DNA from: Syntrophomonadaceae bacterium
GTDB taxonomy: Bacteria > Bacillota > Syntrophomonadia > Syntrophomonadales > DTU052
Assembly: GCA_012728655.1 (NCBI GenBank)
Contig: JAAYEQ010000036.1
Location: 1-35,739, forward strand
Direction: 5' to 3'
Length of the DNA stretch: 35,739 nt
Shown piece after piece: positions 27,282 through 34,787 of this stretch. The notes beneath the pieces are model-generated. The model searched no databases and was not told the origin of the DNA. It saw nothing but the letters and a program-made list of their open reading frames with translations. The translations under genes and the position numbers were made by a program. Each line of letters opens with the position of its first letter. Within the stretch, counting starts at the first letter, position 1.

Positions 27282-28031
27282 GTGAACAAGGAGCTTATTA
27301 CAGCCCAGGCTCTCGCCGAGATCCTGGATCTGTCGGTGGAAACGATCTGGAGATATACCAGGGAGAACAGGATACCCTATATTGAGTTGGGAAGCAGACA
27401 ATACCGATACAAACTGGACGATGTGATCAAAGCGCTCAGCAGTGACACCGTCAGCGAAAAACCCGCTCCGTATGAAACTCAACCGGTGAAAAAGCTAACT
27501 TACCAGGATTACCTGGATATACCGGAAGAGCCGGGCTACCGTTTTGAAATCCTGGAGGGCATGCTGATCAAGGAACCGTCGCCCAATGTTGCCCACCAGC
27601 GTGCTTCCCGCAAGCTGCAAAGGATTCTGGAAGACTATTTTGCGGAGGTTGATCCCGAAGGCGAGGTCTTCAATGCCCCGCTGGATGTTACCCCGCTTGA
27701 TTACAACGTAGTCCAGCCGGATCTCTTTTACGTATCGGGTGAACAGAAAATGATGGTGAAGGATGAACGGATTGATGGAGCCCCGGCCTTGGTGGTTGAG
27801 ATTATATCCCCTTCCAGCGGACGTAAAGACCGGCTGCAGAAAATGCGGATATACCGGAAGGCAGGGGTACAGCACTACTGGCTGCTCGATCCGCAGCAAA
27901 AAACCCTGGAATGCTTTGCCTTGCGTGATGGTTATTACGCCCTGATTGCAAGCGGAATGGACGAAGATGTTGTCGAGCATCCGGATTTTGCCGGTTTGTC
28001 AATTGAACTGAAATCCCTGTGGTCCAAATAA
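27282..28031 (+). CDS. Excisionase-type HTH fused to Uma2-family (DUF820) nuclease-like domain
   Basis: 249 residues, GTG start with a modest AAAGGG site. Residues 1-52 form an excisionase/MerR-like winged helix-turn-helix (LITAQALAEILDLSVETIWR, ENRIPYIELGSRQYRY), which should bind DNA. Residues about 70-249 match Uma2/DUF820: LTYQDYLDIPEEPGYRFEIL, then VVQPDLFYVS with the PD Asp, PALVVEIISPSS (Glu of the PD-(D/E)xK core) and KMRIYRKAGVQHYWLLDP. Uma2 domains have a restriction-endonuclease fold, are abundant in cyanobacteria and some Clostridia, and have no settled role; mobile-element ties are often proposed. The fold and catalytic residues look intact. It has its own strong promoter and no partner gene. 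Confidence 0.85.
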   Translation: MNKELITAQALAEILDLSVETIWRYTRENRIPYIELGSRQYRYKLDDVIKALSSDTVSEKPAPYETQPVKKLTYQDYLDIPEEPGYRFEILEGMLIKEPSPNVAHQRASRKLQRILEDYFAEVDPEGEVFNAPLDVTPLDYNVVQPDLFYVSGEQKMMVKDERIDGAPALVVEIISPSSGRKDRLQKMRIYRKAGVQHYWLLDPQQKTLECFALRDGYYALIASGMDEDVVEHPDFAGLSIELKSLWSK

Positions 28032-28329
28032 GAAGTAATACCGGAATGTCTTCAGTTGGGCACTATTGATCCCTACTTTATTACCGGTCATATAATCATT
28101 CCTTTTTCGATCTTTTCATTTCAGGTCAGTACTTCACATGACCTCATGTCAGTTTTTCGAAAGAAGCTGCTGCACTCACCAATTGAGCCTGGGCAACTGC
28201 AGAAGGTTTTACCAGCCGCAATGATTGACAATCAGAGATGTTTGTCGCGTTAATGAAAGCTCATGGAAACAGTTTCGTGACGGATTATGGAGCAGGCGGA
28301 CTTCTATCGGGTCAGGAGGAAGAGACAAG
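28032..28329. other. Intergenic region, no recognised feature
   Basis: About 300 bases between the HTH-Uma2 gene and the ABC permease. The permease frame is open back to 28225 but without a ribosome-binding site. I see no terminator, ATPase fragment or clear promoter. Confidence 0.4.
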
Positions 28330-29187
28330 ATGGTGACTTCGCTGTTGAACCGGGGTTTGCTTTGGACGGAATGGAAGCAGCACTGGTGGAAGTGCTGGAC
28401 CGCTTTGGTCTTGATGAGCATAACTCCCATCATATCACCGGCATTTGGTTACATAATCTCGAAGTTTGATCCCAATGTCAGCCGTCAGCTTTGCTCAGCC
28501 TGGCTCGACGCTCTTTTGCAGATTGCCGGTGGTGACGCGGGCCAATCCTCACTGGGGATGGTGGCGGTATGGGTCGTTCTCAGCTTGGGAGCAGTGCTGC
28601 TGGGGGAGGAACGCAACCAGAAGTCCATTGAGTGTCTGGCTGCAATGCCCGTCAGCAGGCAGGAGATTGTATCCGCCAAGTATCTCCTGGGGATTATGGC
28701 TGTCATAATCGTAATGCTGTTGAATCTGGCAGCCTTATCCATCGCCGTGTATTCGCTATCCAAGCCGCAGATGCACCCGGCTATCCTGGTATGGTTTGCA
28801 GTTACTGCTTCCGTACTCCTTGCGGTATACTCCATAGCCTTTTTGGCGGCAACCATTACCGGTAACCTGGCGGCATCACTGATGGGAGCCATAACCCTGG
28901 TTTTTGGGCCGCAGTTGATACTGACCTTGATTTCTGGACTGCTTGCTTCGCATGGTATCATCAGTGGAGATGCAAGTCAGATGATACTGGATATCGGACG
29001 AACTCTTACTCTTCCAGAGTACATAAAAACCTATAAATATGGGGAGACCAGCCTGATGACCGTCCCGGCCATGCTGGCCGTTGCCGGAACCTCTTTCGCA
29101 CTGGCAGTGAAGATGTTTGAGAACAATCATTTGGAAAGGGACGGGCGAATAATTATGCTGGATATCTCTTTGAAAAAGCGTAGCTGA
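28330..29187 (+). CDS. ABC-2-type transporter permease (no adjacent ATPase)
   Basis: 285 residues. ATG 28330 is chosen because AGGAGGA ends nine bases upstream. About six membrane helices are visible: near 15-40, 65-90, 110-135, 140-165, 170-200 and 245-265. The segment VVLSLGAVLLGEERNQKSIE, followed within about ten residues by PVSRQEIVSAKYLLG, is the hallmark of ABC-2 membrane subunits (the E-x(n)-T/S-x-E-x-L-x-x-x-P-V-S-R pattern). Such subunits normally need an ATP-binding partner encoded next to them; none is present on either side, so it is an orphan or relies on a distant ATPase. The substrate is unknown. Confidence 0.75.
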   Translation: MVTSLLNRGLLWTEWKQHWWKCWTALVLMSITPIISPAFGYIISKFDPNVSRQLCSAWLDALLQIAGGDAGQSSLGMVAVWVVLSLGAVLLGEERNQKSIECLAAMPVSRQEIVSAKYLLGIMAVIIVMLLNLAALSIAVYSLSKPQMHPAILVWFAVTASVLLAVYSIAFLAATITGNLAASLMGAITLVFGPQLILTLISGLLASHGIISGDASQMILDIGRTLTLPEYIKTYKYGETSLMTVPAMLAVAGTSFALAVKMFENNHLERDGRIIMLDISLKKRS

Positions 29188-29286
29188 CTATGTCTTTGAA
29201 AATACTTGCCCATATGAAGATTCAGAATAGCAGTCGTCGTACTCCTGACCCGTTCCTTGCCCAAAACCGATGTTGACCGCGAGTAT

Positions 29287-29466
29287 CTAATCAATTAATC
29301 TTTTAAGTTTCTCCATCTGCCATCTCTGAAGATACTGCAATTCTTTGAGCTTGCGCCGTAGACGGTTGACCTCTTTCGGATCACAAGCCTGGTCCATCTC
29401 CTTTTTGACCCGGAGCATATTCTCCATTGTTTTTAATAAAGACTGCTCTAATTCCGATCTTGTCAT
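29287..29466 (-). CDS. Small helical protein, possibly Spo0E-like in shape
   Basis: 59 residues from ATG 29466 (GTG 29472 is an alternative two codons upstream; the ribosome-binding site is weak in both cases). The whole protein is predicted helical with heptad-like Leu/Met spacing: SELEQSLLKTMENMLRVKKE, then DPKEVNRLRRKLKELQYLQR, so a helical hairpin or coiled coil. The size and D-P-x-E-V turn recall Spo0E-family phosphatases, but the SQELD signature is missing, so I do not assign that function. Highly charged, with no signal peptide. I do not recognise the family. Confidence 0.45.
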   Translation of the reverse strand: MTRSELEQSLLKTMENMLRVKKEMDQACDPKEVNRLRRKLKELQYLQRWQMEKLKRLID

Positions 29467-29623
29467 AATCACCTATCCCAAAGTGCCGTTGCTAATCTAA
29501 TTTCCCTGCCGCGAGGCGGGAGTGCTTTTTCCGACCTTTAGTGTCCGGCAATAGACGGTATTATTGTCCAAAGGGTGAAAGATGTGGTGATGTAGTGCCC
29601 AACAATTGTCGCCCCACAGGGGC

Positions 29624-29648
29624 AGGGAGAACCAAACCTGTTCTCCCT
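29624..29648. other. Perfect 9-bp hairpin downstream of the secreted-protein gene
   Basis: AGGGAGAAC (29624-29632) and GTTCTCCCT (29640-29648). It lies about 115 bases past the stop of the minus-strand gene and could end that transcript, although no T tract follows on the minus strand. The 29473-29764 gap holds nothing else except a small hairpin with CTTTTT near 29508-29532 on the plus strand. Confidence 0.4.
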
Positions 29649-29764
29649 GAATGACCGAGTGTTGTTTTATGCATTATCCAAACTCGGCATGGTTAAGGTG
29701 GGGTAGGGTGCAGCTCAGGTCAACCTTTGTCCGAATCGCAGCATAAGATTTGATAATTAACAAT

Positions 29765-30205
29765 TTAATAAGTCACCGTGTCCGAATATACTGTCTTATC
29801 CTCCAGCAGCGTGCCGGAAGAGTTATACACTTTCACGTTATTGCTTACCCGATAGGTGCCATGGACAACATAATAATCCTCCTCAAGAGCAGCGATAGTG
29901 GACCCTGGGGGTGAGGTTGCGGACCACGATTTAATTGTGCTCCATCCGCTGGAGGTGGATTTCTGCAAGTTGACGGTCAGCTTGACTGTGTGCGATCTGT
30001 CATATACTTGAGCAATTCCCGTACATGTGGCTTTCCCTAGAGAGTTGATCGAAAGGCCCGGACATATTAACGCAATGTAAGTCCACTGGGGTGTTATCAC
30101 CCCTTGCGTCCCTGCATTTTGGGCCACTTCAACTGTAGCGTAGGCCGGAGCCGCGACCAAAATAGTCATAAGAGCAATAATCCCCATACAGATGAGTTTC
30201 TTCAT
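29765..30205 (-). CDS. Secreted DUF6147-like protein
   Basis: 146 residues; ATG at 30205 with AAAGGAGG nine bases upstream on the minus strand. The first about 24 residues form a classical signal peptide (MKKLICMGIIALMTILVAAP, cleavage after AYA). The mature part has the pattern I associate with DUF6147: LSINSLGKATCTGIAQ, VKLTVNLQKSTSSGWSTIKS and EEDYYVVHGTYRVSNNVKVY, ending in SDTVTY. It looks like a small beta-sandwich, exported and not anchored. Cys is present at about 48 and 61, a possible disulfide. It is the last gene of a cassette with a sigma factor and a DUF4367 protein. Its ribosome-binding site lies in a long inverted repeat (30212-30259), suggesting translational control. Confidence 0.75.
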   Translation of the reverse strand: MKKLICMGIIALMTILVAAPAYATVEVAQNAGTQGVITPQWTYIALICPGLSINSLGKATCTGIAQVYDRSHTVKLTVNLQKSTSSGWSTIKSWSATSPPGSTIAALEEDYYVVHGTYRVSNNVKVYNSSGTLLEDKTVYSDTVTY

Positions 30206-30211
30206 AGATTA

Positions 30212-30259
30212 AAACCTCCTTTGAAATGTCTTTATTAGAAAAGACAACCAAGGAGGTTT
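30212..30259 (-). promoter_or_regulatory. Inverted repeat that sequesters the ribosome-binding site of the secreted-protein gene
   Basis: Outer arms AAACCTCCTT (30212-30221) and AAGGAGGTTT (30250-30259) are perfectly complementary. Inner arms TGTCTTT (30227-30233) and AAAGACA (30240-30246) are too. In the minus-strand transcript the AAGGAGG of the downstream gene would be paired with an anti-Shine-Dalgarno CCTCCTT about 30 bases upstream. Confidence 0.65.
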
Positions 30260-30296
30260 AATGCAACAGGTTCTTTCCATTCATAACAATATTTTT

Positions 30297-31058
30297 TTAT
30301 TCTATGTATTTCACTCCCTCGGCAATCCTTACCGCCGTGTCTTTGTCTATCTGTCCCCTGATCATGAACATGCGGTCATCCATTGCCCAAATGAGAGTGA
30401 CCGAAGATTCTTTCATAACAAGAGTTCCCTCAAACCCGTTGATGCTGACTGTTTCTATCTCGGAAGCATTTTCAGTATCCAGATGAGGCTTGATTTCCTG
30501 CATTAACTCCATATACGTAATGGATTCTCCTTTAGGATTTTGGAATTCAATAAAACTTGATTGTTTGTCTTTCCGGGCATTAACTATTTCGTATCCCTCT
30601 GGTATATAAGTCGGGATGTAAGATCGGGGCCAGTCGATGGTTACGCTTCCGCCTTCTGCATCGCTGCTGTCCTTTAGCTGAAATGACGTATATTCCTGCT
30701 GAATGTCCATGAGAAAATTCAGTGCTCTGACTCTAACCGCCTCCACAGTCACTACCGTGGAACCAAGGATAACCAGCACAATCAGCATGGCTATTGCCGC
30801 TTTGTTTAAGGCCTGCCAAATGAGCAGACTTCCAGCATAAACCCGCGGTTTTCTTAGTTGGGCATCCAACTGCCGGCTGAATTTTTGGACTGCCGCCTGG
30901 GAAGGCAAGTACTCCGGGTCATTTTTCAGCTTTTCTTTTTCTTCCAGGAAGAGCCGGCCTTCTTTTTCTGCAACATCGTGCATGACCAATTTGAACAGAC
31001 TATCCTCATATTCTTCATAAAGCTTTTTGCGAATCTGTTCCGGACTGTTATTCGGCAC
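30297..31058 (-). CDS. DUF4367 domain membrane protein, putative anti-sigma factor
   Basis: 253 residues from a GTG at 31058 with GGAGG nine bases upstream inside the sigma-factor gene, which it overlaps by 11 bases. Residues 1-80 are cytoplasmic and helical (QIRKKLYEEYEDSLFKLVMH), one membrane helix follows (about 86-108, AAIAMLIVLVILGSTVVTVE), and the outside part (about 130-253) matches DUF4367: SYIPTYIPEGYEIVNARKDK, then FIEFQNPKGESITYMELMQ and VSINGFEGTLVMKESSVTLI. In Firmicutes this architecture directly after an ECF-type sigma gene usually is its anti-sigma factor or a membrane partner, which I infer here. It may sense an external signal through DUF4367. Confidence 0.8.
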   Translation of the reverse strand: MPNNSPEQIRKKLYEEYEDSLFKLVMHDVAEKEGRLFLEEKEKLKNDPEYLPSQAAVQKFSRQLDAQLRKPRVYAGSLLIWQALNKAAIAMLIVLVILGSTVVTVEAVRVRALNFLMDIQQEYTSFQLKDSSDAEGGSVTIDWPRSYIPTYIPEGYEIVNARKDKQSSFIEFQNPKGESITYMELMQEIKPHLDTENASEIETVSINGFEGTLVMKESSVTLIWAMDDRMFMIRGQIDKDTAVRIAEGVKYIE

Positions 31059-31623
31059 GCTGACTCGCCTCCTTATCCAAGAGCTTTTTCGCCTCTCTCC
31101 GGGCTCTGGTCAGATACTGTCGTACACTGTCCGGAGCTATTTGTAAAATCCCTGCTATCTCCCGGTCATGCATTCCCAGCATGTATTTAAAATACAACAG
31201 ATCTTTATACTTCTCCGGCAGTTTTAATATGGCGTTACCCAGTTCTTCTATTTCCTCCTGACGGATGATCCTGTCTTCAATGTTATCTCCCCGGTTGGAA
31301 AGCTTCTCCGACAAATCAAGGTCTTTACCGTGATATACATGCTTGTTCTGTACATCGCGGTGTTTTATGAAGTTGATGGCCACGCTCTTGGAAGTATAGA
31401 CAACATAGGCGGCCAATCTGCAACAGTCTAATGTCTGCAGCAGAGAAACTTTTTCGATTAGCTTGATAAAAGTATCGTTGATAAGGTCCTCCACTTCGGT
31501 TGTATTACGGGTAATACCGTAAATCGTCTTTCGCACCAGGCCGTAATAATCGTTGTACAAATTCAGCATAAACGCCTTATCGTCATCGCTCTCCATGGCA
31601 CTGACTGGCAGCATAATCACCAC
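31048..31623 (-). CDS. RNA polymerase sigma-70 family (ECF-like) sigma factor
   Basis: 191 residues; GTG at 31623 with AAGGA upstream on the minus strand. Region 2 spans about 18-85 (LYNDYYGLVRKTIYGITRNT, then VEDLINDTFIKLIEKV). Region 4, about 125-185, shows LPEKYKDLLYFKYMLGMHDR, then EIAGILQIAPDSVRQYLTRARREAK with its helix-turn-helix. There is no region 1 or 3, so it belongs to the ECF/group 4 type. It would direct RNA polymerase to a small regulon, probably including its own operon. It overlaps the DUF4367 gene and is divergent from the membrane protein at 31791. A TATAAT lies at 31644-31649 (minus) next to an 8-bp palindrome. Confidence 0.88.
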   Translation of the reverse strand: MVIMLPVSAMESDDDKAFMLNLYNDYYGLVRKTIYGITRNTTEVEDLINDTFIKLIEKVSLLQTLDCCRLAAYVVYTSKSVAINFIKHRDVQNKHVYHGKDLDLSEKLSNRGDNIEDRIIRQEEIEELGNAILKLPEKYKDLLYFKYMLGMHDREIAGILQIAPDSVRQYLTRARREAKKLLDKEASQRAE

Positions 31624-31666
31624 GATTCACATCCTTTGCCATGATTATATAAGCCTTTATGCGAGA

Positions 31667-31688
31667 ATTGTTACATAAAAGTAACAAT
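31667..31688. promoter_or_regulatory. Perfect 8-bp palindrome in the divergent promoter region
   Basis: ATTGTTAC (31667-31674) and GTAACAAT (31681-31688) around ATAAAA. It lies 44 bases before the sigma-factor start and 103 bases before the divergent membrane gene, near the position of a -35 element for the TATAAT at 31644-31649. Operator or sigma-recognition site; inference. Confidence 0.5.
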
Positions 31689-31790
31689 ATCCCATGGGGC
31701 GGCCTGTTTTCTGCGCAGCATCCGTTTCATTGACAACATTTTACACATACTCAACAATAATATAAATTGCATTGACAGGGGTTTGAGAAG

Positions 31791-32360
31791 ATGCGGCGTG
31801 TTATATGGGCGATATATTTCTGGCTGTTTGTTGTAACCGTAATTCTTATTTTCGACTTTGCGCGTCATGGCGTTTTTAACACCGGTTTCATCCTGGCCAC
31901 CTCCGGTGGTTGGTTTCTGGCACTGTTAATAATGACATGGGCGAGGGGAAAAGACACCGGAACCGGCTGGGCGGTCGCGCTGATGTCCCTGATGTTCATA
32001 CCGGTAGTGCTTTTCTTCCTGGTCATGGGTCTTAACAAGGCTTTGAACCTGCATCTTTCACTGCCGCTCCTGATGGTTATCTACCTGGCTTTACTTATTG
32101 CCATTTTCCTCGCCGCCCAGCGGATAATGGGACGGATGATGACCGGGCCAGTTTTGCCTCCACCGGAAATGGATGAGAAGGATGTAAAGTCCATGGCCTG
32201 GTCCGGTTTCATCGGGTTTGGGGTTCTGTCCACTCTTCTGATTGCTGCTCTGCTCCAGCCCTGGATTAGCTACAACGATTTGCGCCTCTGGTTGGGAGTA
32301 CTGGGAACCGGTATGTTATCGTGGTTTTTATCGTTTTTGGTGTTCTCTCTGGCAAAATAG
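31791..32360 (+). CDS. Hypothetical polytopic membrane protein
   Basis: 189 residues, ATG behind a modest AGGGG. Five to six membrane helices are visible: about 4-22 (VIWAIYFWLFVVTVILIF), 33-50, 60-80, 90-110, 132-152 and 165-186. The loop at about 115-130 (MMTGPVLPPPEMDEKDVKS) is polar and acidic. I do not recognise a family. The gene is divergent from the sigma/DUF4367/secreted-protein cassette, sharing about 170 bases of upstream DNA that contains the palindrome, so joint regulation is possible. A weak TTTTAC-16-TATAAA could be its promoter. Confidence 0.65.
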   Translation: MRRVIWAIYFWLFVVTVILIFDFARHGVFNTGFILATSGGWFLALLIMTWARGKDTGTGWAVALMSLMFIPVVLFFLVMGLNKALNLHLSLPLLMVIYLALLIAIFLAAQRIMGRMMTGPVLPPPEMDEKDVKSMAWSGFIGFGVLSTLLIAALLQPWISYNDLRLWLGVLGTGMLSWFLSFLVFSLAK

Positions 32361-32383
32361 GGGGAGTTAAGGAGGTAAAAGCC

Positions 32384-32632
32384 TTGGTGCAGATGAAGAA
32401 CCACTGTATAAGTCCACTTCGGGGGTGCTCCAGTATCCCTCTAAAGGCAATGGGGTTGATGAGGATCCCTTTGTTTGGAAATCAACCGGTTTACGTGTCA
32501 TTAGTGATGGCGTGGCTGCCGGGAGATGATGCGCCGGCCGGGCTTGTTTACCGGCATTTACTTGTCATCGGTGACGGTGTAGCTGATTGCTTTCGCCATA
32601 ATGAGGTGTCACATGGAGCTGCAGATCCGTAA
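32384..32632 (+). CDS. Questionable small ORF overlapping the recQ start
   Basis: 82 residues from TTG 32384, with a perfect TAAGGAGGT eight bases upstream, overlapping recQ by 20 bases. The product (residues include PLFGNQPVYVSLVMAWLPGD) resembles nothing I know. A second frame over 32393-32528 encodes DEEPLYKSTSGVLQYP and DEDPFVWKSTGLRVI, which looks more protein-like but lacks a start codon behind the ribosome-binding site. So this may be a frameshifted small gene or a translated leader coupling to recQ. Confidence 0.3.
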   Translation: MVQMKNHCISPLRGCSSIPLKAMGLMRIPLFGNQPVYVSLVMAWLPGDDAPAGLVYRHLLVIGDGVADCFRHNEVSHGAADP

Positions 32633-34787
32633 AGCCATGAAAAGATTCTTTGGTTATGATGAATACAAGCCCGGTCAGGAGGCGGTAGTCAAAAGTATTC
32701 TGCAGGGCCGTGATACCGTGGGAGTGATGCCGACCGGTGGCGGCAAATCACTGTGTTACCAACTTCCGGCCCTGCTCCTGCCCGGTCTCACCCTGGTTAT
32801 TTCCCCCCTGATCGCCCTTATGAAAGACCAGGTGGATGCCTTGAATGATCAGGGGGTTGCGGCTTCTTTTATCAACAGCTCTCTGGAACCGGATGAGGTA
32901 AGGTTTAGGCTTTCTCAGGCCTTGCGGGGCCGGTACAAGTTACTGTATGTCGCTCCGGAAAGGCTTACCTCCGAACACTTTAACAACTTCTTAAACAAAA
33001 TCTCCATTTCATTGGTCGCGGTTGATGAGGCGCACTGCATTTCTCAGTGGGGACACGATTTCAGACCCAGCTACCTCGGTATCGGGACCTGGATAGCCTC
33101 CCTACCGAAGCGACCCATTGTGGCAGCTTTTACGGCCACGGCCACCCCGAAAGTTAGAGAAGATATCATTCACCTGCTGGACCTGAAAGATCCTCAGGTC
33201 TTTATCAACAGTTTTGACCGTCCCAACCTGCGGTGGATGCTGATGAAAGGGGTGGACCGGGAGCGTTTTATCACCCGTTATCTGAGAGAACATCCTGAAC
33301 AACCGGGTATCATATATGCCGCAACCCGCAAAGAGGTGGACAGCCTGTTTGCGGAATTACGTGCCCGCAGGTTCAAGGTCGGGAAATACCACGCAGGGAT
33401 GAGCAGCGACGATAGGACGCGCAATCAGGAGGCGTTTATCCATGACGAGGTTCAGGTGATCGTGGCCACCAACGCTTTTGGGCTGGGCATAGACAAGTCC
33501 AATGTCCGTTTCGTTATCCATCACAATATGCCCCGTCACCTGGAAGCCTATTATCAGGAAGCCGGTCGGGCCGGGCGTGACGGTCAGGCGGCGGATTGCA
33601 TCCTGCTCTATCGTGCCGGGGATATACATATTCAGAAGTATTTGATTGAAAACGGGGGCCTCTCCCCGGAAAGGAAAGCTGTGGAGCATATCAAGCTGCA
33701 GGACATGATCGACTATTGCCATACCCCCGGTTGCCTGCGTGCCTATATCCTGAGCTATTTTGGGGAGCGGGATTTCAAATCTGAATGCGGCAACTGCAGC
33801 AATTGTAAAGACTATGCCGTAAGGGACATTACTGTCGAAGCCCAGAAGATCTTTTCCTGTGTTTACCGGATGAAGCAGCAATACGGGAGTTCGATGGTGG
33901 CGTCGGTTCTTAAAGGCTCACAACAAAAGAGGATTTACCAGTTGGGGTTTCATGAGCTTTCCACCTATGGAATTATGAGCGACGTAGCGACCGAGGATAT
34001 CATCGAGATGATAAATCTGCTGGCGGCCGAGGAATACCTCACTATAACCGCAGGCAAATACCCGATAGTAAAGCTCTGTCCCAAAGCGGCTCCGGTTTTG
34101 CGGGGAGAGAAAAGGGTGATCGTCAAATTCCCTCAACCCCCGAAATCGGTCGGCAACGAAAGTCCCGTCTTTCGGGCACTGCGTTCCCTGCGCCAGGCGA
34201 TAGCCCGGCAGCATAGTGTTCCCCCGTATGTTGTTTTTCCCGACAGTACCCTGCGGGAGATGTGCGAACGGTTGCCGCTGGACCGGGAAGAGATGCTGCG
34301 CATCACCGGAGTGGGGGAGATCAAGTTCGAAAGGTACGGATATCAGTTCCTGGAGCTGATACAAAAATACGTAGCCGATCCGGAGTCAATCGAGGATGAG
34401 AGGGGTCTGGCGGGTAAACTTTTTAAAAAAGGTGTTCCGGGCAAGAAAAAGAACAGTATTGCCGGCCGGAAATCCAGCCACCTTATCACCTGGATGCAGT
34501 TTCAAGAGGGGATGTCGTTGGATGAAATCTCCCAGGAGAGGGATCTGCGGCTGGCAACCATTCAGGAGCATTTGTTACAGGCGGTAAGAGAGGGCTATGA
34601 AGTCGACTGGGACCGGCTGATACCTCGGCACCGGGAAGAGCAGGTCTTACGAACCGCCCGGGAACTGGGGACAAACAGGTTGAAGCCGATTAAGAAAGCC
34701 CTGTCGGCAGAGATCGATTATTTCACCATAAGGATGGTCATGGAGAAAAATGGCATACGTCCTTCCCAGGGATCTCGTGCACCTTAA
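32613..34787 (+). CDS. recQ: ATP-dependent DNA helicase RecQ
   Basis: 724 residues. ATG 32613 is preferred to ATG 32601 because GAGGTG ends five bases upstream. Two RecA-like domains hold GVMPTGGGKSLCYQ (Walker A, K45), SPLIALMKDQVDAL, DEAH (138-141), FTATATPKVREDI and ATNAFGLGIDKSNVRFVIHH, then HNMPRHLEAYYQEAGRAGRDG. The zinc subdomain shows CRAYILSYFGE and CGNCSNC. The RQC winged helix is followed by an HRDC domain (about 525-595, FRALRSLRQAIARQHSVPPY) and a C-terminal HTH_40 segment (about 640-680, QFQEGMSLDEISQERDLRLA). It unwinds DNA 3'-5' in recombination repair. Full length with all family domains. Confidence 0.97.
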   Translation: MELQIRKAMKRFFGYDEYKPGQEAVVKSILQGRDTVGVMPTGGGKSLCYQLPALLLPGLTLVISPLIALMKDQVDALNDQGVAASFINSSLEPDEVRFRLSQALRGRYKLLYVAPERLTSEHFNNFLNKISISLVAVDEAHCISQWGHDFRPSYLGIGTWIASLPKRPIVAAFTATATPKVREDIIHLLDLKDPQVFINSFDRPNLRWMLMKGVDRERFITRYLREHPEQPGIIYAATRKEVDSLFAELRARRFKVGKYHAGMSSDDRTRNQEAFIHDEVQVIVATNAFGLGIDKSNVRFVIHHNMPRHLEAYYQEAGRAGRDGQAADCILLYRAGDIHIQKYLIENGGLSPERKAVEHIKLQDMIDYCHTPGCLRAYILSYFGERDFKSECGNCSNCKDYAVRDITVEAQKIFSCVYRMKQQYGSSMVASVLKGSQQKRIYQLGFHELSTYGIMSDVATEDIIEMINLLAAEEYLTITAGKYPIVKLCPKAAPVLRGEKRVIVKFPQPPKSVGNESPVFRALRSLRQAIARQHSVPPYVVFPDSTLREMCERLPLDREEMLRITGVGEIKFERYGYQFLELIQKYVADPESIEDERGLAGKLFKKGVPGKKKNSIAGRKSSHLITWMQFQEGMSLDEISQERDLRLATIQEHLLQAVREGYEVDWDRLIPRHREEQVLRTARELGTNRLKPIKKALSAEIDYFTIRMVMEKNGIRPSQGSRAP

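Follow-up and report, generated by a model that had tools for sequence, protein, structure and literature searches.

What controls the secreted protein gene that lies directly behind an ECF sigma factor gene and a DUF4367 membrane protein gene in a Syntrophomonadaceae bacterium, and is it simply the third gene of one operon? The initial annotation of the window (the whole 35,739-nucleotide stretch analyzed here, contig JAAYEQ010000036.1 of assembly GCA_012728655.1) described an envelope-signalling module in which the secreted protein is the product or the signal, and implied a simple three-gene operon. The three open reading frames lie at the coordinates given there, all on the minus strand, with the reported overlap of 11 bases between the first two. 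The idea of an envelope-signalling module, comprising an ECF sigma factor, a single-pass, anti-sigma-like DUF4367 protein and a conserved secreted neighbor, is well supported. The most informative feature, a promoter and hairpin element between genes 2 and 3, had been missed.

31048-31623, minus strand: ECF sigma factor gene (191 aa; regions 2 and 4 only)
30297-31058, minus strand: DUF4367 gene, presumed anti-sigma factor (253 aa; single transmembrane (TM) segment)
29765-30205, minus strand: secreted protein gene (146 aa; predicted signal peptide and 7-strand beta-sandwich; at most a distant DUF6147 relative)
31048-31058, minus strand: overlap of the sigma and DUF4367 reading frames (11 nt)
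31644-31649, minus strand: TATAAT, candidate sigmaA -10 of the sigma/DUF4367 operon (a sequence reading, weak evidence)
30738-30746, minus strand: codons V105-E106-A107 of a [V/A]-x-A motif that resembles a signal-peptidase site, where the TM helix ends on its outer side
30312-30620, minus strand: predicted extracytoplasmic DUF4367 domain (residues 147-249), an RseB/MucB-like beta domain in the structure model
29205-31724: segment without a counterpart at the same site of a congener (G002), in which both flanks are colinear and 84-90% identical

The sigma protein matches Pfam Sigma70_r2 (4.8e-9, residues 22-89) and Sigma70_r4_2 (5.2e-11, residues 126-176), and TIGR02937 above the cut-off (6e-22). 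With regions 2 and 4 present, region 3 absent and a length below about 200 aa, it is an ECF (group IV) sigma-70 factor. No clear -35 for the sigma/DUF4367 operon was seen in the window, while TGTATAAT or a similar sequence recurs ahead of orthologous sigma genes; the operon's own promoter tentatively looks sigmaA-like.

The DUF4367 protein consists of a helical, conserved N-terminal region, one TM segment at about residues 87-107 and the DUF4367 domain (Pfam, 1.4e-19) after it. Encoded together with a sigma factor and, on the topology suggested by its sequence, having a cytoplasmic N-terminus, one TM helix and an outer domain, it has the layout of a membrane anti-sigma factor. We presume that it is the anti-sigma factor of the adjoining sigma factor because of the 11-nt overlap, the single TM segment, the conserved [V/A]-x-A and the identity of its best fold matches. 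At this site, V or A occupies position -3 in 20/20 DUF4367 orthologues and A occupies position -1 in 20/20; in all 20, the motif adjoins the end of the TM helix and has x-R behind it. The RsiV/RsiP type is marked by small residues at -3 and -1 immediately beyond the TM helix, and signal peptidase cuts such a small-x-A site to release the sigma factor (PMC8844934, PMC6066255). The order of genes is also that of sigmaV-RsiV and sigmaP-RsiP, an ECF sigma factor followed by a single-TM protein with the site near its TM helix. In contrast to RsiV and RsiP, the outer domain here is DUF4367, and a secreted output is physically attached with a predicted read-through lock. The DUF4179 domain found in RsiV is absent from the DUF4367 protein, in which Pfam recognizes DUF4367 only, and we do not class it as RsiV.

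The best nine PDB fold matches of the DUF4367 model are all chains of RseB or MucB, with E values from 1.6e-4 to 1.3e-3. RseB and MucB are sensors that control the release of sigmaE and AlgU, respectively. With low TM-scores and a model pTM of 0.45, the likeness to the proteobacterial sigmaE-RseA-RseB and AlgU-MucA-MucB systems is a lead rather than established homology. Whereas RseB is a separate periplasmic protein, the RseB-like domain here would be fused to the presumed anti-sigma factor.

The secreted protein begins with a hydrophobic, signal-peptide-like stretch ending in A-Y-A, and its model is a 7-strand beta-sandwich (pLDDT 84) whose fold matches are generic beta-sandwich domains only. 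Its earlier description as DUF6147-like is a borderline case: Pfam and NCBIfam gave no match that counts for the window protein, DUF6147 at its Pfam cut-off included, and two of eight orthologues hit DUF6147, with a best E of 0.0066. We found no paralogues of its gene in its own genome. An origin in a phage or plasmid was considered and rejected, as neither collection gave a match to the gene.

The association of the secreted gene with the sigma/DUF4367 pair is old and broad, judging from counts of loci. A full DUF4367 orthologue is present at 23 genome-contig loci; the secreted gene is directly downstream in 15 of them (including one truncated secreted gene and two near-identical loci) and not in 8. 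Relatives of the secreted protein occur in 47 of 399 genomes of the phylum; starting from similarity to this protein alone, 31 of 40 secreted genes with flanking sequence have a sigma or DUF4367 gene within 3.5 kb, 15 of them directly behind a DUF4367 gene and 16 more nearby. Because it is conserved in many genera, the trio arrangement exceeds chance. The initial annotation had made the module depend on the secreted gene lying next to orthologous pairs and on its being transcribed with them; adjacency holds at most loci, whereas the secreted gene is predicted to be transcribed independently.

The trio has a G+C content of 45%, compared to 51% in the window, and at its position G002 carries a binding-protein gene. 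In the three other genomes of the genus that were searched, the DUF4367 and secreted genes and a close sigma orthologue were absent. Orthologues at 60-73% identity are found in other families, in Syntrophomonas, Pelotomaculum, Desulfotomaculum, Desulfosporosinus and Desulfoscipio, with a further orthologue at 40% identity in Caproicibacter. Horizontal transfer, or else loss in congeners, best accounts for this distribution. Two other reading frames in this region were noted. An ABC-2 permease frame (28225-29187, plus strand) looks like a fusion of two neighboring permease genes that are separate in G002 (L138 6490-7545 and 5642-6490), and the ATPase and GntR-like genes beside the permeases in G002 have no counterpart in the window, which suggests a deletion. 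A 61-aa coiled-coil-like frame (29287-29472, minus strand), within the segment absent from G002, had no meaningful family match.

Between the stop codon of the DUF4367 gene and the start of the secreted gene, a gap of 91 bp in the window, lies the composite element TGTTGCATTAAACCTCCTTGGTTGTCTTTTCTAATAAAGACATTTCAAAGGAGGTTTTAATCTATG, which has the following parts.

30203-30268, minus strand: composite element of promoter and hairpin, between the DUF4367 and secreted genes
30240-30268, minus strand: candidate ECF-type promoter, TGTTGCA-N14-TTGTCTTT (-35-like, 30262-30268; -10-like, 30240-30247)
30250-30256, minus strand: anti-Shine-Dalgarno CCTCCTT in the promoter spacer
30215-30221, minus strand: Shine-Dalgarno (SD) sequence AAGGAGG of the secreted gene, forming the 3' arm of the hairpin
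30212-30259, minus strand: RNA hairpin predicted to sequester the SD, in the read-through transcript only (fold z -2.49)
30211-30214, minus strand: terminator-like TTTT run immediately downstream of the 3' arm

TGTTGCA and TTGTCTT resemble an ECF-type -35 and -10, respectively, and we searched genomes for the motif TGTTGCA-N14-TTGTCTT. In the 63 genomes of the order there are 30 exact matches, of which 26 belong to genomes where a close sigma orthologue is present, and presence of the motif is associated with presence of the sigma factor (Fisher p 4.6e-5). The motif thus behaves like the promoter of this sigma factor, although its use as such is inferred. The genome under study (2.3 Mb) contains one exact match and none at one mismatch. 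A wider regulon at two mismatches was rejected, since the 12 matches are at background level (17 in the control). The single exact match therefore suggests that the regulon in this genome, whose assembly is 96% complete, consists of perhaps one gene.

Many orthologous sigma genes carry the motif in their upstream region in the opposite orientation, and the genes that follow copies of the motif mostly start with signal peptides. Since the same motif precedes other predicted secreted genes in sigma-carrying genomes, the secreted protein is more readily seen as the product, a target of the sigma factor, than as the signal. Some motif matches stand apart from a detected sigma factor. In one genome (G023) that has a match, the secreted gene lies where a contig ends and no sigma gene was recovered, and others have matches without a detected orthologous sigma factor (G004, C71:37925 and C73:13677; G050, C30:8308), which a related sigma factor may use; the G004 matches precede secreted-looking genes. 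More distant sigma groups have the related -35 sequences TGTTACA, TGTCACA and TGTAACA. Behind a distant sigma/DUF4367 pair at one such locus (L082, from 5759) lies a promoter of the TGTAACA type whose spacer contains CCTCCT. The gene that follows it encodes a secreted protein of another kind, 561 aa long, which may mean that the output slot is exchangeable. A second match in the window, TGTTGCAGATTGGCCGCCTATGTTGTCT, lies inside the sigma gene (31398-31425, minus strand). Two Caproicibacter sigma genes also hold an internal match (position 4613 of L079 and L080), and none was seen in other orthologues; the match may be a coding coincidence.

The promoter spacer contains the sequence predicted to close the hairpin. 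CCTCCTT pairs with AAGGAGG about 33 nt downstream, and an inner stem, TGTCTTT/AAAGACA, lengthens the structure. In the window, as in most trio loci, the promoter motif overlaps the 5' arm. The predicted mean unpaired probability of the window SD is 0.07-0.09 in a long transcript compared to 0.46-0.50 in one started at the promoter. Among trio genes whose SD is strong (n = 28), the unpaired probability has a median of 0.002, compared to 0.46 in 152 control genes taken from the same loci (p 1.5e-12). A strong hairpin, in which the partner of the SD lies 28-42 nt upstream, precedes 20 of the 28 trio genes and 1 of the 152 controls, in counts that are not phylogenetically independent. The full promoter and hairpin pattern gave 14 matches in 5 genomes, all sigma-carrying, none in 58 others and none in reversed controls. 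Divergent copies of the promoter, which face away from the sigma gene, have no anti-SD, as expected if the hairpin guards against read-through. We rejected the possibility that the hairpin is a genome-wide repeat, as the CCTCCTT/AAGGAGG core recurs at 3 further places in the genome, where the promoter motif is absent. Elsewhere in this genome (L058, G000 C41:5262-5315), a strong hairpin (dG -30.6) that is not accompanied by this promoter motif hides the start site AAAGGAGG upstream of ATGAGAATATTCGGC..., possibly a second locked gene.

Because the secreted gene has its own sigma-dependent-looking promoter and a hairpin predicted to block read-through expression, the simple operon implied by the initial annotation is probably wrong. 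In such an operon, all three genes would share one mRNA and the secreted protein would act as a signal or a co-regulator, for example by binding the DUF4367 ectodomain as its ligand. The close co-directional spacing kept across many genera is what this arrangement would produce, but it leaves the intergenic promoter motif unaccounted for, places the sequestered SD in exactly the polycistronic transcript, and does not fit the duplicated, element-bearing copies that lie away from a complete sigma operon in two genomes (G013 and G036). We therefore regard it as unlikely.

The copies in G013 (C16; L043 10-150, 2665-2800 and 4865-5005) and G036 (C27, C38 and C6) are repeated cassettes made of a DUF4367 tail (about 38-89 aa), the promoter-hairpin and a variable downstream gene, which may be the secreted gene, a truncated holin with a SleB-like hydrolase, or remnants of the secreted gene. 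They resemble recombining or silent copies. That the G013 element drives the holin cassette was rejected, as the holin frame lacks a normal start and looks truncated and fused to a duplicated leader.

The pairing itself is maintained where the SD has changed. At one locus (L193) a changed SD has a matching partner, GTGAGGTGAT with ATCACCTCAC; at another (L206) the pair is GGGTGG with CCACCC; and in Caproicibacter an altered SD, GGAGA, is accompanied by a changed partner. Two-sided, pair-preserving changes are found at SD-core and flanking positions and G-U pairs are common, in a pair table that was built from folds predicted by thermodynamic models and hence leans towards pairing. The tables were anchored on the SD, as a MAFFT alignment put the anti-SD out of register where the spacer differs by 1 base between sub-groups. 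Inverted repeats near promoters are commonly operators, and the repeat could instead be a DNA site for a repressor or for the sigma factor. The frequency of G-U pairs favors RNA over a DNA operator: one SD position has changed from G-C to G-T in 8/22. Moreover, compensatory changes alter the sequence freely while one arm always remains the SD, and we consider a DNA operator very improbable.

A more serious alternative, which we hold to be possible though less probable than not, is that the hairpin is the intrinsic terminator of the sigma/DUF4367 operon, in which the ribosome-binding site (RBS) of the next gene happens to form the 3' arm and its sequestration is incidental. The element has an A-rich 5' flank, a G+C-rich stem core and a T-run after the 3' arm; across 30 trio genes, the longest T-run between SD and start codon averages 4.1, compared to 1.6 in controls (p 1.5e-12). 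In addition, at L068, a locus that lacks the secreted gene, a hairpin of the ordinary terminator-like kind takes this place. An incidental role for the SD is harder to reconcile with arms that track the SD in lineages that changed it (such as L193, L206 and Caproicibacter), and the loop, at about 30 nt, is longer than is typical of terminators; a standard terminator scan did not call the hairpin. The two roles are compatible, and the structure may stop read-through RNA besides hiding the RBS.

Alternatively, the hairpin could be an RNA switch in the mRNA of the secreted gene itself, such as a thermosensor, a riboswitch or a protein-binding leader, acting on transcripts that contain the whole structure. 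A stable hairpin over the SD is a classic architecture for such switches, and the inner stem-loop is conserved, but the loop sequence is not. Because the 5' arm overlaps a conserved ECF-type promoter, that arm would be missing from the main transcript. A known riboswitch or RNA family was rejected, as Rfam gave no match up to E 1 over 28000-33000. We judge an RNA switch of this kind improbable.

The main weakness of the reading as a guard against read-through is that its link to an upstream co-directional gene is loose. A hairpin is present without such a gene at L206 and, more weakly, at L147, and it is weak despite such a gene at L194, L195, L198, L212 and L214. Within the secreted family, the difference in hairpins between trio and non-trio genes reaches only p 0.05. 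A strict link between hairpin and co-directional neighbor was therefore rejected in favor of a tendency.

Taking these observations together, we think it likely that the locus is a self-contained, horizontally moving ECF module whose secreted output lies behind an RNA read-through lock. The sigma factor and the DUF4367 protein would be made together, with the N-terminus of the latter holding the sigma factor at the membrane. When the RseB-like outer domain senses a signal, the signal-peptidase-type site outside the TM helix would become exposed and, by analogy with RsiV and RsiP, regulated proteolysis would free the sigma factor. Free sigma factor would then start transcription at TGTTGCA-N14-TTGTCTT, immediately ahead of the secreted gene that is its output. 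This promoter would lie inside the 5' arm of a hairpin whose 3' arm is the SD of the gene, with the T-run after it. Transcripts arriving from upstream, chiefly by read-through from the sigma operon, would fold, hide the RBS and perhaps terminate, whereas a transcript started at the promoter would begin in the loop, lack the 5' arm and, with its RBS free and no terminator formed, be translated. The secreted protein would thus be made only when the sigma factor is active, even though its gene sits 91 bp behind the operon of its regulator. The computational support for this model is solid and consists of gene order and its conservation, the co-occurrence of motif and sigma factor, and the conservation and covariation of the hairpin; from these we infer promoter use, the start site, anti-sigma binding, proteolysis and the lock itself.

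The same logic operates in bacteriophage T4, where late genes and homing endonuclease genes (I-TevI, segB, Aeh1 mobE, e and soc) are controlled by promoters within hairpins (PMC2988022). Read-through mRNA hides the RBS, and each gene's own regulated promoter inside the structure yields a transcript without the 5' arm (PMC2988022). As in T4, the SD here is predicted to be base-paired in the transcript initiated upstream. In contrast to T4, the element is chromosomal in Bacillota, is associated with an ECF sigma factor and a secreted output, is conserved across families and has a terminator-like T-run, and the controller would be a product of the very operon being insulated. Read-through transcripts of the IS10/Tn10 transposase gene likewise fold so that translation is blocked, while the transcript of the internal promoter is spared. 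That system limits a transposon's own activity, whereas here the gene in question would be the output of a stress response. Among open-licence papers, we found none naming DUF4367 or DUF6147 and no description of a read-through lock in an ECF regulon, which is weak evidence of absence; the lock logic, known from T4, would be present here in an ECF-regulon version for which we found no description.

On balance, we lean slightly towards the broader view that one 60-nt element combines the end structure of the regulator operon, the promoter of the target and the RBS of the target. Such an element would hard-wire an ECF sigma factor to the adjacent secreted gene with very little leak, would allow a regulon of as few as one gene, and would move between species as a unit. 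It may also serve as a compact, low-leak expression part, and the promoter consensus could help to annotate, in syntrophic and sulfate-reducing Firmicutes, the output genes that belong to these sigma factors. For the families involved, DUF4367 gains a testable role, that of sensor within an anti-sigma factor, and a candidate regulator emerges for the secreted family. A phage trick, the promoter within an RBS-hiding hairpin, would thereby reach beyond phages to a signalling family that is encoded on chromosomes and has dozens of natural variants.
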